NCBI GenBank assembly: GCA_019973575.1
Contig: BPUI01000001.1
Location: forward strand, 1,500,342-1,564,341
Reading direction: 5' to 3'
DNA length: 64,000 nucleotides
Source: Gemmatimonadetes bacterium T265
Lineage (GTDB): Bacteria; Gemmatimonadota; Gemmatimonadetes; Gemmatimonadales; Gemmatimonadaceae
The notes under the pieces are model-generated. The model did no database searches, was not told where the DNA came from, and was given only the letters and a program-made list of their open reading frames with translations. Position numbers and translations under genes: made by a program. Below, in pieces: positions 56,419-62,123 of the stretch (positions are counted from its first letter, which is position 1; the number at the start of each line of letters is the position of its first letter).

Positions 56419-56477
56419 ACCCCTCCGCCACATCGTAGCTTGCAACGGCCAACCCCCCGCCGCCGTTGTCCGCTCCC

Positions 56478-57866
56478 ATGCCCGACCTGCTCGCCGACAC
56501 GATCGCCGCCCTCGCTACCGCGCCCGGCCGCGGCGGCGTGGCCGTGCTGCGCGTGAGCGGCTCCGACGCGCTCGCGGTCGCGGGGCGCGTTGCGGGTGCA
56601 GACGGCGCTTGGCCGCCGCCGCCGCGCACCGCCGCCCTCCGTGCCGCCCGCGATCCGACGACCGGCCGCTTGCTCGACCGGGTGCTCGCGACCGTCTTCC
56701 CGGCCCCGCGCTCGTACACGGGCGAGGACGTGGTCGAGCTCTCCACCCACGGCGGCCTCGCCGCCCCTGCCGCGGTGCTCGCCGCGCTCGTCGCCGCCGG
56801 CGCGCGCCCGGCCCTCCCCGGCGAATTCACCCGCCGCGCCGTACTCCACGGCAAGCTCGACCTTGCGCAGGCCGAGGCGACGGGCGACCTGATCGACGCG
56901 CGCACCGACGCGATGCGCGACGTCGCGCTCCGCCAACTCGACGGCGGCCTTTCGCGCCGCATCGCCGCGCTCCGCGACCGCGTGCTCGACGTCGAAGCGC
57001 TCCTCGCCTACGACGTCGACTTCCCGGACGAGGACGACGGGCCGGTGCCGCGCGCCCGCGTCCTGGCCGCGGCGGAGGCGGCGCTCGCCGACGTCGACGC
57101 GCTGCTCGCGACGGTGCCGGCCGGGCAGATCGCGCGCGACGGGGCGACGGTCGTTCTCGCCGGCCCGCCGAACGCGGGGAAGTCGTCGCTGTTCAACGCG
57201 CTCGCGGGCGAGGCGCGGGCGCTCGTCACGCCGGTCGCGGGCACGACGCGCGACGCGCTTGAGGTCACCATCGAACAGGCGGGTGGCGGCACCGCCACGG
57301 GCCGCCCACCGTGGCCGCTCCGCCTCGTCGATACGGCGGGCCTCCGCGACACGTCCGACCTCGTCGAACGGCTCGGCGTCGAACTGAGCGAGCGCTGGGT
57401 GCGTCGCGCGCACGTCGTGCTCGCGTGCGGCGAGCGCGCGGCCGACGTTGCCCGCACCGCGGCCCACGTCGCCGCGCTCACCGACGCGCCGGTGCTCCTC
57501 GTGCGCACGAAGGCCGATCTCCCGCTGGACGAACTCGACGATTCTGCACTGCTTGCAGTGAGCGCAGAAACTGGCGCCGGACTGTCTTCATTAACGGCGG
57601 CCGCGGTCGACGCGGTGTCCGCCCGCTACGGCGCGCCCGACCCCGACCTCCCCCTCGTCACGCGCGAGCGCCACCGGCGCGCGCTCCGCGACGGGCGCGA
57701 CGAGTTGGCGCTCTTCATCGACGCGTGGCGGAGCGACACGCTCCCGGCCGTGGTCGCCGCGGTCCACCTCCACGCGGCCGCCGGTGCACTCGGCGCCGTG
57801 ATCGGCGGCGTCGACGTCGAGGACGTGCTCGACCGCGTCTTTCAGTCGTTCTGCGTGGGGAAGTGA
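56478..57866 (+). CDS. mnmE: tRNA modification GTPase MnmE
   Basis: A 462-residue protein from the ATG at 56478 (a TTG at 56466 would add four residues). The N-terminal folate-binding part has DTIAALATAPGRGGVAVLRV and SYTGEDVVELSTHGG with GEFTRRAVLHGKLDLAQAEA. The G domain (about 215-375) shows GPPNAGKSSLFNAL (G1), GTTRD (G2), DTAGLRDT (G3), TKAD (G4). The C-terminus ends FCVGK, the strictly conserved ending with the functional Cys. With MnmG (25203) it modifies U34 of tRNAs. Confidence 0.96.
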   Translation: MPDLLADTIAALATAPGRGGVAVLRVSGSDALAVAGRVAGADGAWPPPPRTAALRAARDPTTGRLLDRVLATVFPAPRSYTGEDVVELSTHGGLAAPAAVLAALVAAGARPALPGEFTRRAVLHGKLDLAQAEATGDLIDARTDAMRDVALRQLDGGLSRRIAALRDRVLDVEALLAYDVDFPDEDDGPVPRARVLAAAEAALADVDALLATVPAGQIARDGATVVLAGPPNAGKSSLFNALAGEARALVTPVAGTTRDALEVTIEQAGGGTATGRPPWPLRLVDTAGLRDTSDLVERLGVELSERWVRRAHVVLACGERAADVARTAAHVAALTDAPVLLVRTKADLPLDELDDSALLAVSAETGAGLSSLTAAAVDAVSARYGAPDPDLPLVTRERHRRALRDGRDELALFIDAWRSDTLPAVVAAVHLHAAAGALGAVIGGVDVEDVLDRVFQSFCVGK

Positions 57867-58567
57867 ACCGTGCGGGCGCGCCGCGCATCGCCCACGGCCG
57901 CCGCGCACGCGGTGGCCGCCGCCGCGGTCCCCACCGCCTCCTCCCACAACCCGCCGAGTGAGGTGACGAGGTCCCGGACCGGCCCGCGGGCGTCGTCGAG
58001 CGCGTCGCTCGCCCGGCGCGCCGCCGCTCCCGCCCGCGCGGCCTCGTCCCGCGCGTCGGCCATCTCGGCGGCCGCCGTTCGCGCGGCTGTGGCCGCGTCC
58101 TCCGCGAGCCGCCGCAACGCGTCTGCCACCGCCGCGAACGCCCGCCCCTCGTCCCCGACGCGCGCGGCCTCGATCGACGCGTTGAGCGCGGTCCGCTGCG
58201 TCTGGCGCGCAAGCCGCGCGAGCGCGCCGACGAGCGCCTCCCCGCGCGCGACGGCGGTCCCGATCTCGCCGACGGCCGCGACCGCGGTTCGCGCGTGTGC
58301 CGCCGCGGCGCCGAGCGCGGCGTCGGATTCCGCCGTCGCGCGTCGGTGGTCGGCAAGCGCCGATGCGACGGTCCGCGCGCCGTCCACGACGTCCTCCGCG
58401 GCCGTCGACACGTCGGCGAGCGCCTCGTCGACGACGTCGCCATTCGAGTTGCCGCCGATCGCGGCGAACTCGCCGCCGACGATCCCGGCATGGGCAACCG
58501 CTGCGCCCGAGTCGGCAACTGGCCTAGCTCTGGCACTGTAAGATCCCGTCCGGAAATCGTTCACCAT
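57842..58567 (-). CDS. soluble methyl-accepting chemotaxis-like protein
   Basis: The ATG at 58567 has GAGG a few bases upstream and gives 241 residues. It is an all-helical, Ala-rich coiled coil with the MCP hairpin tip QTQRTALNASIEAARVGDEG followed by RAFAAVADALRRLAEDAATA, which corresponds to the CheA/CheW-binding region of chemoreceptors. No membrane segment or sensor domain is present. Its 3' end overlaps mnmE by 25 bp. The start is only 11 bp from the start of the divergent kinase-like gene, which suggests a shared promoter region and related jobs. No other chemotaxis genes are in the window. Confidence 0.78.
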   Translation of the reverse strand: MVNDFRTGSYSARARPVADSGAAVAHAGIVGGEFAAIGGNSNGDVVDEALADVSTAAEDVVDGARTVASALADHRRATAESDAALGAAAAHARTAVAAVGEIGTAVARGEALVGALARLARQTQRTALNASIEAARVGDEGRAFAAVADALRRLAEDAATAARTAAAEMADARDEAARAGAAARRASDALDDARGPVRDLVTSLGGLWEEAVGTAAAATACAAAVGDARRARTVHFPTQND

Positions 58568-58578
58568 GTCCTCGTAGT

Positions 58579-59907
58579 GTGCCTGTGCAGCATCGCACGC
58601 TTCCGCAGTTCGTCGCGGCAAGCCTCATCCTTCGTGCTCCGTTCCTGGCTCGGCACTGGCAGGACCGTGCCCGTGCGGCGACACCGCGGCGACCCGCCGC
58701 GGGGGGCCGATCGCACCCCGAGTCGCTCGTCGCAGACGCCCGGCCCGTCGCCGGGGCAGTGCCGGACAGCCTCGACGCCGAACACGTCCTCCGGGCCCTC
58801 GCCGACGAGGTAACCGCGTCCACCGCCGCCGCACTCCTCGCGGCGGAACACCCGCTCGGCGCCGTCGACGCGTTCAACCCGCTCGACGACCCCGAGTCTC
58901 CCGACAAGGACGCCCGACTCTCGGCCGAAGTCATCCAGCTCGGCTGGCAGGCCGGAGGCCGCGCGTTCGCGGCCGGACTCTCGGTCCACCACGTCGTCCG
59001 CGACGCCGACCTCCTCCTCGCCATCATCCTTGCCGATCTCGAACGCGAGGTCGAGGCGCTACCCGCCAACGTTGTCGCGACACCAGCCGACACGTTCGGC
59101 GCAGCACGGCGCCTGCAGCGCGGCATGGGCCGGTACACGCAGGCAGCGGCCGCCGGGTTCGTCCACGCGCTCCTCGCCAACATGCGCGAGCGCTACCGCA
59201 TACTCCGCCACGATCTCCGCAACCCGCTCGGCACGATCCGTAGCGCGCTCTCGCTCATGGACGACGAGACCGTGCCCGAGGAGATGCGCCACGGACCGGG
59301 GATCCGCTCGATGGTCGCGCGCAACGCCGGCTCGCTCGACGACCTCATCGCGACCGGGCTGGACGACGCGGCCGCCACCGCGCTGCTCGTCCCACCCCAG
59401 GACGTCGCCCTACGCGACATCGCGATCGCCGCGCGGCGCGAGGTACGCGACGCGGCCCGCCTCGCCGGCTGCGAGGTGGTCGTCGGCGACGTGCCGTCCG
59501 CCCCGCCGTCGTACGTCGACGCCGTCGCGCTGGAACTCACGCTCACCGCGCTCCTCCTCGCCGCGCTCGCCCGCGCTGATTCGGGCGCCACCGTCCGAAT
59601 CGACTGTACGGACCGCGCGATGACGGGCCGCGGCGCGAGCGCGTCGGCCGACGGGCGGCCGTACGTGGTCATGCGCGTCACGCTCGTGCGCGCAACAGCG
59701 CCTCGGTCAGGCGACGACCCTGAGACCCGCTGGGAACCGCACGGCCTCGCGCTCGCCGCATCGCTGGCCGTCGACCACGGCGGGAGCCTGAGCGCCGACC
59801 CCGCCGGGTCGGCCGCGGCCGACCCGGCGGCCCTCGCCAACGCCGACGCGCTCTACCTGTGGCTGCCCCTCTCGGACACCGCCGCGCCGGCCCCCGCGGC
59901 CGTGTGA
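58579..59907 (+). CDS. histidine-kinase-like protein with degenerate ATPase domain
   Basis: From a GTG at 58579 the product has 442 residues and no membrane segment. The N-terminal 200 residues (FVAASLILRAPFLARHWQDR, AFAAGLSVHHVVRDADLLLA and IILADLEREVEAL) resemble the RsbRD/stressosome-type helical sensor. The dimerisation helix has an intact H-box RILRHDLRNPLGTIRSALSL near 205-225. The following ATPase-like region lacks the usual N-box Asn (VALELTLTALLLAALARADS) and has a poor G-box (WEPHGLALAASLAVDHGGSL). It may be a phosphotransferase of the Spo0B/ChpT kind rather than an autokinase. The true start is uncertain. Confidence 0.68.
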   Translation: MPVQHRTLPQFVAASLILRAPFLARHWQDRARAATPRRPAAGGRSHPESLVADARPVAGAVPDSLDAEHVLRALADEVTASTAAALLAAEHPLGAVDAFNPLDDPESPDKDARLSAEVIQLGWQAGGRAFAAGLSVHHVVRDADLLLAIILADLEREVEALPANVVATPADTFGAARRLQRGMGRYTQAAAAGFVHALLANMRERYRILRHDLRNPLGTIRSALSLMDDETVPEEMRHGPGIRSMVARNAGSLDDLIATGLDDAAATALLVPPQDVALRDIAIAARREVRDAARLAGCEVVVGDVPSAPPSYVDAVALELTLTALLLAALARADSGATVRIDCTDRAMTGRGASASADGRPYVVMRVTLVRATAPRSGDDPETRWEPHGLALAASLAVDHGGSLSADPAGSAAADPAALANADALYLWLPLSDTAAPAPAAV

Positions 59908-59978
59908 CCAACCCCGCCGACCGCCGCCGGACGCCCCCGACCGGCTAACCCGAGCGGCGTCCGCTTCGGTAGGTACGA

Positions 59979-60587
59979 TCAGCCGGGAAGGCTCAACCGG
60001 CCAACGACTTCCGCGGCGCGCACGAGCGACAGGACGGGGACCCCAGCCGCTTGCTCGATCGCCTCACGCCCTCCTTCCTCCCGGTCGACGATGGCGAGCA
60101 CGCCGACGACCACGCCGCCGGCCGCCCGCACCGCCTCGACGGCCTGCAGCGCGGAGCCGCCCGTCGTGATCACGTCCTCCACCACCGCGACCCGGTCGCT
60201 CGACCGGAACGGCCCCTCGATGCGCTGCCCGGTGCCGTGCGCCTTCGGCTGCTTGCGCACGGTGAAAGCGCGCACCCACTCCCCCGCCCCGCGGGCGACG
60301 GTGCTCGCGTACGCCACGGCGTAGGCGATCGGATCCGCGCCGAGCGTGAGCCCGCCGACGGCGTCGACCAACCAGCCGGACTCGGCGAGCAGGTCGAGGC
60401 CGAGTGGGCCGATGAGCGCGAGGCCGTCAGGACTCATCGTCGTGAGCCGCGCGTCGATGTACAGATCCGACGTGCGCCCCGACGCCAGCGTAAAGGTCCC
60501 ACGCCTCGCCGACCGCTCGGCGAGCAGGTCGGCGAGGCGCGCGCGCCGCTGGGCGGTCGAAGCGGATTCGGCGGAGAGCGTGGACAT
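59979..60587 (-). CDS. pyrE: orotate phosphoribosyltransferase
   Basis: PyrE makes orotidine monophosphate from orotate and PRPP. The 202-residue product has the PRTase signature VAVVEDVITTGGSALQAVEA at about 128-147. FTLASGRTSDLYIDARL at about 33-49 and FTVRKQPKAHGTGQRIEG at about 100-117 are also typical (orotate loop, flexible loop with Lys-His-Gly). The ATG is at 60587. It is convergent with the kinase-like gene across a 71-bp gap that has only a short hairpin. No other pyr genes are here. Confidence 0.94.
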   Translation of the reverse strand: MSTLSAESASTAQRRARLADLLAERSARRGTFTLASGRTSDLYIDARLTTMSPDGLALIGPLGLDLLAESGWLVDAVGGLTLGADPIAYAVAYASTVARGAGEWVRAFTVRKQPKAHGTGQRIEGPFRSSDRVAVVEDVITTGGSALQAVEAVRAAGGVVVGVLAIVDREEGGREAIEQAAGVPVLSLVRAAEVVGRLSLPG

Positions 60588-60782
60588 GCGGGCAGAGTGG
60601 GGGGCCGGGCGACCGCAGGTCGGGCGACCTCGGTTCGCGGTGCGCGGGAGCTTACGGATGACCGCCTCCGTTGACAACGTTTCCCTTGACAGACCGTACT
60701 CCTCCGGTTGTTTCGCTCGTTACCGGTGTCATCGCCCGCCGCCACTACTTCGGCCGACCCGACTGGCTCGCCGTCCGGGTCC

Positions 60783-62123
60783 ATGGCCGCCCCGCCGCTG
60801 CTCACACCGACGCTCGCCGAACGCGCGGTGCGGGCCGGTGCGGCGTCGTACACGGACGCCGCGCGCGCCGCCGCCCTCGCCCTGCTCGCGTCGTGCGCCG
60901 GCGTCGTCGCGGCGTTGTGGACGGCTCACCGCGGACTCGCGGCAGCCGCCGACCTGCTCCCGCCGGCCGATGCCGCGGTCATGGGCCGCTACCGCACCGC
61001 CAGTTGGCTCCTCGGCGCCGCCTCGCTCGGCGCGCTCGCGGTCGGCCTCGTCCACGGCGAACGCATGCGCCGCCGCGCCGCGGCTCGTGCCACCGAGTTG
61101 GAACGCCTGTCGGCAGAACTGATCCGCGCCAACCGCGCGAAAAGCGAGTTCCTCGCCAACGTCTCGCACGAGCTGCGCACACCCCTCAACGCCGTGGTCG
61201 GGTTCGCGGAACTCATCGAGGACGGCGTCTACGGCGAGCTCACCCCGCAGCAGGCCGGGCCCGTACGACGGATCGCGGCAGCATCAACCCACCTACGCCA
61301 CATCGTCGACCAGATCCTCGACCTCGCGAAGATCGCCGCGGGCCGCCTCGAGGTGCACACCGAATCGGTCGCGCTCCGCCCGTTCGTCCTCGAAGTCGCG
61401 GGAGAGATCGAATCGTTGGTCCAGGACAAGGGGCTCGCCCTCTCAATCGCCGTCCCGAACTCCCTCCCGCGCCTCCGCAGCGACCCGCTTCACGTCCGCC
61501 AGGTACTCGTCAACCTGCTCGGCAACGCCGTCAAGTTCACGCCGGCCGGCGGACGAGTCGGCGTGCGGGCGTCACTCGTCGACGCGCCGCCGGGCGCCCC
61601 CCCGTTCGCGCCCAAGCAGGCCGCAGCGGACGACGAGGCCTGGGCCGGGATGCGCCGGCTGCTCCCCGGCCGTCGCGCGCCGGCCATCGACGCGAGCTCG
61701 CCCGACGGCGGTCGGTCTTCCGTCGTCCCCTGGATCGCGCTCCAGGTGAGCGACACCGGCGTCGGCATCCGCCCCGCCGACCAGGCCCGCGTCTTCGACG
61801 AGTTCGAACAGGTCGGCCCCCGCACCGGCGACGGGGCCGACCGCGGCACGGGATTGGGCCTCGCCATCTCGCGCCGCCTCGCCCAACTGTTGGGCGGCGA
61901 TCTCACGCTAGAGAGCGCACCCGGGCAGGGCTCAACGTTCACCCTCTGGCTGCCGGTCGACCCGGTCGATGTCCCCGCCGACGCCGACGGGATGGAGCCC
62001 GGTCACGCGGCGCGCCCACCCGTTGCGGGCGAGCGCCGCGCGGGGGACCCGCGCGCCGGCGGGCGGCGGCGCAGCGACCGGAACGACGCAACGCCGGCGG
62101 GCGGCTCTCCCGTGCAACGGTAG
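60783..62123 (+). CDS. membrane sensor histidine kinase
   Basis: The ATG at 60783 gives 446 residues; a TTG at 60708 would add 25. Two membrane helices (about 25-50 and 75-100) bracket a short periplasmic loop, followed by a coiled coil. The HisKA domain has FLANVSHELRTPLNAVVGFA (His about 132), and the ATPase has the N-box VLVNLLGNAVKFTPAG, DTGVGIRPADQARVFDEFEQ (G1, F-box) and GTGLGLAISRRLAQLLGG (G2). A Pro/Ala/Arg insertion of about 45 residues lies between N- and G1-boxes. No response regulator gene is adjacent, so it is an orphan kinase. The C-terminal tail (about 405-446) is disordered. Confidence 0.9.
   Translation: MAAPPLLTPTLAERAVRAGAASYTDAARAAALALLASCAGVVAALWTAHRGLAAAADLLPPADAAVMGRYRTASWLLGAASLGALAVGLVHGERMRRRAAARATELERLSAELIRANRAKSEFLANVSHELRTPLNAVVGFAELIEDGVYGELTPQQAGPVRRIAAASTHLRHIVDQILDLAKIAAGRLEVHTESVALRPFVLEVAGEIESLVQDKGLALSIAVPNSLPRLRSDPLHVRQVLVNLLGNAVKFTPAGGRVGVRASLVDAPPGAPPFAPKQAAADDEAWAGMRRLLPGRRAPAIDASSPDGGRSSVVPWIALQVSDTGVGIRPADQARVFDEFEQVGPRTGDGADRGTGLGLAISRRLAQLLGGDLTLESAPGQGSTFTLWLPVDPVDVPADADGMEPGHAARPPVAGERRAGDPRAGGRRRSDRNDATPAGGSPVQR

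Follow-up and report, generated by a model that had tools for sequence, protein, structure and literature searches.

A putative pseudo-histidine kinase of the Gemmatimonadaceae, a candidate histidine phosphotransferase, and the pared-down chemoreceptor encoded beside it

Introduction

Within a 64,000-nucleotide stretch of the genome of Gemmatimonadetes bacterium T265 (hereafter the window, G000:C1:1500342-1564341, part of a 5.63 Mb genome in 6 contigs) lies a gene for a degenerate histidine kinase, here called KIN, whose sequence suggests descent from a histidine kinase in which ATP binding was lost while the dimerization and histidine phosphotransfer (DHp) domain kept the protein in use. We hypothesize, with roughly an even chance of being right, that KIN is a pseudo-histidine kinase acting as a histidine phosphotransferase. 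It is transcribed divergently from a gene for a methyl-accepting chemotaxis protein (MCP), and a sequence-only reading of the window, made without database searches, had proposed that the two form a small phosphotransfer or stressosome-like module separate from classical chemotaxis. The phosphotransfer part of that proposal is the one that we favor, on the grounds of a kept H-box, lost ATP-site residues and a DHp domain better conserved than the catalytic and ATP-binding (CA) domain; the stressosome part finds no support in the domain content of KIN, and the case for a two-protein module is weak. Among the papers listed in literature searches there was none on KIN itself. The features of the gene are as follows.

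58579..59907, plus strand: KIN, putative pseudo-histidine kinase of 442 amino acids, with RsbRD-like N-domain, DHp domain and degenerate CA domain
58597..59163, plus strand: N-terminal helical domain of KIN, residues 7-195, predicted RsbRD_N homolog (hhalign 99.7%, 338 columns)
59164..59367, plus strand: DHp domain of KIN, residues 196-263 (HisKA 3.8e-5), the best-conserved region of the ortholog group
59209..59211, plus strand: codon of the presumed phosphoacceptor His211 (RHDLRNPLGTI), with His in 10/10 orthologs and 34/34 relatives
59398..59874, plus strand: degenerate CA (ATPase-like) domain of KIN, residues 274-432 (HATPase_c in 0/10 orthologs)
59533..59580, plus strand: lost N-box, ELTLTALLLAALARAD in KIN where relatives have sequences like ELCLTNYISNAIKYAD (both Asn gone in 10/10, kept in 34/34)

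Loss of ATP-site residues and retention of the H-box

Searches for KIN covered the genomes of 59 relatives, the family (179 genomes), the order (288) and an even draw across the phylum (395, E<=1e-25), and found it in 11 genomes, all of them Gemmatimonadaceae (G000, G015, G016, G010, G128, G060, G065, G059, G014, G148 and G145). A further scan of a contig collection gave no new ortholog, its matches within the family being G128, G065 and G010 again; two distant matches came from spirochaetes (E of 2e-6 and 7e-6). The orthologs share 24-54% identity with the window's KIN, and the reading frame is open over KIN in each. Ten of the 11 proteins make up the ortholog alignment (for G145, which turned up afterwards, the H-box was read by eye), and a joint alignment of 44 proteins sets these ten beside 34 intact relatives of the architecture RsbRD_N-HisKA-HATPase_c. 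Against Pfam, the window's KIN matches HisKA just below the cut-off (3.8e-5, 24.1 bits, cut-off 26.9) and gives no match to HATPase_c at E<=1. HisKA is recognized in eight of the ten aligned KIN proteins, and RsbRD_N (PF14361) and HATPase_c in none of them at E<=0.1, whereas all 34 relatives match both of the latter.

At the level of single motifs, the H-box retains its His, the Asp at +1 and the Asn at +4 in all ten aligned KIN proteins, whereas the two Asn of the N-box, the Lys and Tyr that follow, and the Asp, Asn and Gly of G1 are found in 34/34 relatives and in 0/10 KIN (in these motif columns G014 is gapped throughout, its N-box stretch being missing, and a few other KIN rows are gapped at single columns). 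The three Gly of G2 occur in 33, 34 and 34 of the 34 relatives and in 0, 4 and 1 of the ten KIN proteins, respectively. The sequence-only reading had described a kinase with an intact H-box that lacks the Asn box, and the alignment agrees. An ordinary active HisKA kinase was considered as an identity for KIN and rejected: the H-box is there, but neither the N-box and G1 residues nor a HATPase_c match appear in any of the ten.

Sequence identity is distributed differently in the two groups. Among the eight long KIN proteins the mean pairwise identity is 0.62 in DHp helix 1 and 0.54 in helix 2, and the two CA halves reach only 0.39 and 0.27; among the 34 relatives the CA halves stand at 0.60 and 0.55, and the DHp helices at 0.51 and 0.35. 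Conservation has moved in KIN from the catalytic to the DHp domain, a pattern that, to judge from the alignments, marks a protein retained for the sake of its phosphoacceptor helix bundle. The motif RHDI..N..GT persists in G014 and G148, where the CA domain is shortened or nearly gone; in G145 the H-box reads RHDIVNAIGAV. The dead KIN group and its living relatives are found within one family, with CA loss that is graded (G148, G145, G014), so that the route from kinase to carrier may be readable from sequence. One genus (g15; loci L103, L105 and L135) has a KIN that is reduced further, its CA domain cut short or almost absent and its H-box altered to RHDI, with the H, D and N kept.

The N-terminal domain, phylogeny and structure models

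Because the profile of KIN matches that of the 34 RsbRD_N carriers over its full length (hhalign, 338 columns, 99.7% probability), its N-terminus is, on this profile comparison, a diverged RsbRD_N domain; the RsbRD-like N-terminus of the sequence-only reading, which Pfam misses, is recovered in this way. An unrooted tree of the sampled proteins puts the KIN proteins on one side of a branch with a support of 100/100, and KIN appears as one group beside the intact RsbRD_N-HisKA-HATPase kinases of the Gemmatimonadaceae. Two such kinases with the domain order of KIN are encoded in the genome of the window (G000:C1:2004381 and 760263). Of the RsbRD_N proteins that the genome encodes apart from KIN, one is a kinase that combines HATPase_c with the box HDLRTPLGAI and is perhaps nearer in type to the ancestor of KIN.

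Structure models of KIN are of low confidence, with a mean predicted local distance difference test score of 60.9 for the whole protein and 59.6 for DHp and CA alone. The CA part of the weak model takes a CA-like fold (best match 7z8n_A, Z 14.2, root-mean-square deviation 3.5, 145 residues aligned), and a profile search of solved structures with KIN returned one match only, 6oap, with an E of 0.41. The weak model of the N-domain (residues 1-191 or 6-191) matches phycobiliproteins at a Z of about 12. The N-domain of RsbR is globin-like, and that of KIN is perhaps globin-like as well, though a helical bundle matched at a Z of about 12 may be a common arrangement. The sole strongly hydrophobic stretch of KIN (residues 313-331, 59515-59571) is a helix that replaces the N-box, inside the CA domain.

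Phosphotransfer and its alternatives

The mechanism that we favor is one in which KIN, probably soluble and dimeric, with its RsbRD-type N-domain as a sensor or dimerization part, most likely accepts a phosphoryl group on His211 from a receiver domain and passes it to a response regulator; with the H-D-x-x-N motif kept, it may also dephosphorylate that regulator. Histidine phosphotransferases derived from dead kinases have been described from a few lineages, among them those of ChpT, Spo0B and PhyT. ChpT and "pseudo-HK" proteins are an accepted class of kinase-derived histidine phosphotransferases (PMC9981736, in excerpt), and by analogy KIN fits this class by its parts, having kept the DHp His and a degenerate CA domain, and not by family match. 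Like KIN, both ChpT, of the CckA-ChpT-CtrA relay, and Spo0B have a DHp domain with a phosphoacceptor His, joined in ChpT by a defunct CA-related domain (PMC9981736 and PMC5898713, in excerpt); unlike them, KIN carries an N-domain of the RsbRD type, and its nearest group is formed by HisKA kinases from the same family. The degenerate ATPase domain and conserved His of KIN have a parallel in PhyT (PhyP) of Sphingomonas, which relays through its His from SdrG to PhyR, so handing the phosphoryl group of a single-domain regulator on to the regulator of the general stress response (PMC5898713, in excerpt). The two differ in that PhyT is membrane-bound and has HRxxN, the motif of the HWE/HisKA_2 type, whereas KIN is of the HisKA type, has HDxxN in 10/10 and is hydrophobic only inside its CA domain.

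The Pfam families of ChpT and Spo0B gave no match in the window's KIN (E<=1) or in the ten orthologs (E<=0.1). Pfam holds both families. Structures of ChpT and Spo0B are not among the matches listed for the weak KIN models, an absence that excludes nothing. Membership of KIN in the ChpT, Spo0B or PhyT family was sought by sequence and not found. The intact RsbRD_N-HisKA-HATPase_c kinases of the same family share the domain order of KIN and have, unlike KIN, a complete set of N-box and G1 residues.

The main rival of a phosphotransferase is a regulatory pseudokinase: KIN would form heterodimers with an intact RsbRD_N kinase or with the kinase encoded next to it, and the partner would phosphorylate His211 in trans or be inhibited, by analogy with ChrS/HrrS and RetS/GacS. 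We regard this as possible but doubtful. The same genome supplies two candidate partners in the intact kinases mentioned above, and there is a precedent in the pseudokinase ChrS, which heterodimerizes and acts with HrrS (PMC9491836, in excerpt). DivL, RetS and ChrS(CA-fs) are, like KIN, kinase-derived regulators, and the structures matched by the KIN model include DivL and RetS; such matches are, however, expected of any DHp-CA model, and active kinases score equally. Moreover, the N-domain of KIN is far diverged from that of the relatives, to the point that the Pfam model misses it in 10/10. DivL has a Tyr in place of the His.

In HisKA kinases the Asn at H+4 of H-D-x-x-N is linked to phosphatase activity, and its presence in all ten KIN proteins would suit a protein whose main task is to dephosphorylate a single response regulator, with no net phosphotransfer. 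The phosphatase activity of many kinases does not need the His itself, yet all ten retain it, and we consider such a role unlikely.

Several observations weigh against a histidine phosphotransferase. The distribution of KIN is patchy (11/179 genomes of the family). The tree flags four KIN rows for odd composition, and the branches between the groups are long. The KIN CA domain aligns loosely with that of the relatives (the F-box column is gapped in 10/10 KIN), and some residues of the ATP site linger, namely the middle Gly of G2 in 4/10, the third in 1/10 and a later Gly in 9/10. No response regulator was recognized among the open reading frames (ORFs) identified at the KIN locus, and the neighboring kinase is without a receiver domain, so that under the usual His-to-Asp rule it could not supply KIN directly and a receiver from outside would be needed. 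Finally, a heterodimerizing pseudokinase or a phosphatase should show this pattern of conservation as well.

A bolder version of the phosphotransferase hypothesis makes KIN the central phosphotransferase of a relay confined to the Gemmatimonadaceae, fed by RsbRD_N stress kinases and by the sensor-stripped chemoreceptor, in which stress and chemosensory inputs would converge on a switch near the origin, invented independently for the role that CckA-ChpT-CtrA fills in Caulobacter. In many relatives the gene neighborhood of this relay would be dnaA-dnaN-pyrE-polA. We think of it as a long shot.

The locus across relatives and the pairing of receptor and KIN

The gene order at the locus is mnmE (+), the MCP-like gene (-), KIN (+), pyrE (-) and a histidine kinase (+), with the following features around KIN.

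58568..58578, no strand: intergenic 11 bp between the ATG of the MCP-like gene and the GTG of KIN
59979..60677, minus strand: pyrE, a gene of pyrimidine synthesis and constant neighbor of KIN (TIGR00336, 147 bits, cut-off 106.8; 11/11 KIN loci)
60708..62123, plus strand: histidine kinase with HisKA and HATPase_c and no receiver match, constant neighbor of KIN (homologs at 11/11 KIN loci)
56466..57866, plus strand: mnmE, its tail overlapping the end of the MCP frame

Many relatives share a common order for this slot, dnaA-dnaN-(unnamed ORF)-X-[MCP]-[KIN]-pyrE-[kinase]-STPK-polA, where STPK is a Ser/Thr kinase and X, in the one copy checked, has an HTH_18 of AraC type; both the window and G015 have mnmE in place of X, and no dnaA was found within the window. 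The labels mnmE, pyrE, dnaA, dnaN, polA, Ser/Thr kinase, CheA, CheR, FliD, FliS and STAS were checked on one copy each, and other loci were assigned by tblastn. pyrE and the second kinase adjoin KIN at all 11 loci (the domains of this kinase were also checked in G065 and G148), and the kinase is present at 4/9 loci that have the receptor only; the length of its sensor part varies between genomes.

Two divergent ORFs with starts 11 bp apart are found as the sequence-only reading had them, and the linkage across genomes is not obligate. The receptor stands beside KIN at five loci (G000, G015, G016, G128 and G065), and KIN stands without it at five others (G060, G059, G014, G148 and G145); G010 is outside this count, its contig beginning inside KIN. 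Eighteen further loci comprise nine with the receptor only, six with neither gene and three that could not be scored (L165, L167 and L175); the six with neither were picked by a match to the neighboring kinase and are uninformative on the frequency of that kinase. Of 11 receptor loci fetched from KIN-less genomes, all nine that could be scored have the receptor in the same slot and no KIN. Among the matches listed, 39 rows of at least 350 bits place a full-length receptor in 38/179 genomes of the family, 35 of them without KIN, a count that leaves out G016 (214 bits) and the partial rows, which may include truncated receptors at other places (G114, G115 and G116). The receptor is the more widespread tenant of the slot between the AraC-type gene (or mnmE) and pyrE. 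It is found beside KIN at 5/10 loci and at full length in 35/168 genomes without KIN (Fisher p 0.047, with kinship ignored), a co-occurrence that is at best slightly above chance. From these slot states and the near-chance co-occurrence, the divergent pairing therefore appears to reflect the sharing of one slot, which makes the receptor and KIN neighbors but not necessarily one module. An obligate MCP-KIN module was rejected, with five of ten KIN loci lacking the receptor and nine of nine scorable receptor loci from KIN-less genomes lacking KIN. In G128 a further full-length relative of this receptor (L165) lies on a short contig with no recognized neighbors.

A separate complex of the two proteins, either stressosome-like or free of CheA, would nevertheless fit the divergent arrangement with 11 bp between the starts and the same slight excess of co-occurrence. 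The loci with either gene alone speak against it, as do the nature of the receptor, a HAMP-MCP protein in G128, G065 and G015, and the want of a STAS domain in KIN, and we judge such a complex the most improbable of the readings considered here. The identity of KIN as a stressosome RsbR/RsbRD protein was rejected with the C-terminal STAS domain absent: no STAS match was found in the window's KIN or in its orthologs. The genome encodes one RsbRD_N-STAS protein (RsbR-like) elsewhere, away from the KIN locus.

The receptor gene

57842..58567, minus strand: MCP signaling hairpin of 241 amino acids, without sensor, transmembrane segment or HAMP (PF00015, 2e-10)
58088..58234, minus strand: tip of the hairpin, residues 112-160, including LARQTQRTALNASIEAARVGDEGR (20/23 positions shared by all four long orthologs retained)

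The MCP frame matches PF00015 (MCPsignal) above the cut-off (2e-10, 41.2 bits, cut-off 34.6), and because of this match it is not a chance frame of high-GC DNA. Open frames are cheap at this G+C: the chance of 241 open codons is about 0.05 from base composition, and the G+C of third codon positions is uninformative (0.89 in the MCP frame against 0.90 in its antisense frame). Most chemoreceptor classes have a sensor, transmembrane segments and HAMP, yet soluble MCPs exist. A Pfam scan found no HAMP in the window's MCP, and it has no hydrophobic segment, as against three to five in the four long orthologs beside KIN, which are 530-580 amino acids long; the signaling tip without sensor or membrane part that the sequence-only reading described is thus what the profile and hydrophobicity scans return. 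Three of the four (G128, G065 and G015) have hydrophobic segments followed by HAMP and then MCPsignal; the receptor of G016 has five hydrophobic segments, one of them not N-terminal, and HAMP was not found in it. Of the receptors at the five paired loci, the one in the window alone is truncated. It shares the signaling domain and tip with the membrane chemoreceptors of this locus in relatives, differing from them in the lack of sensor, hydrophobic segments and HAMP and in a tip that reads QTQ in place of the QTN of all four long orthologs. By this comparison the window's MCP is a membrane chemoreceptor cut to its cytoplasmic signaling hairpin, and it illustrates the paring of a chemoreceptor down to that hairpin.

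The tip of the window's MCP keeps 20 of the 23 columns that are invariant in the four long orthologs, and the arms 11 of 32. This retention is a hint of use rather than proof, because the long receptors themselves conserve the tip (0.53-0.76) above the arms (0.31-0.53). An MCP without sensor, transmembrane segment or HAMP and with drifted arms, a frame of a size that is not improbable by chance, and a KIN that has lost its catalytic motifs might together be taken as functionless, decaying leftovers. Against this stand the fairly well-kept tip and, for KIN, H-box residues present in ten of ten orthologs at 24-54% identity with their frames open, and we hold decay of both genes to be improbable.

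Because the genome holds CheA, CheR and CheW domains, a soluble hairpin would have chemotaxis partners in the cell, which the MCP could meet. CheW-family matches lie at three places, and one frame with Hpt, HATPase_c and CheW is CheA; CheR, a single receiver, FliD and FliS are encoded as well. There are three MCPsignal matches in the genome, one of them below the cut-off. Receptors are few by this count; a separate search with the window's MCP gave as many as 11 matches in relatives.

Gene starts and ends

The GTG start of KIN at 58579 is supported because the first helix (TLPQFVAASL...RHW) aligns with the orthologs of G015 and G016. For the MCP frame, the ATG start is at 58567, and other in-frame starts in the first 200 bases are TTG 58621 and GTG 58564. 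A scan of 57700-60100 found no sigma-70-like promoter or terminator. At their other ends, the mnmE and MCP frames overlap tail to tail by 25 bp (57842-57866).

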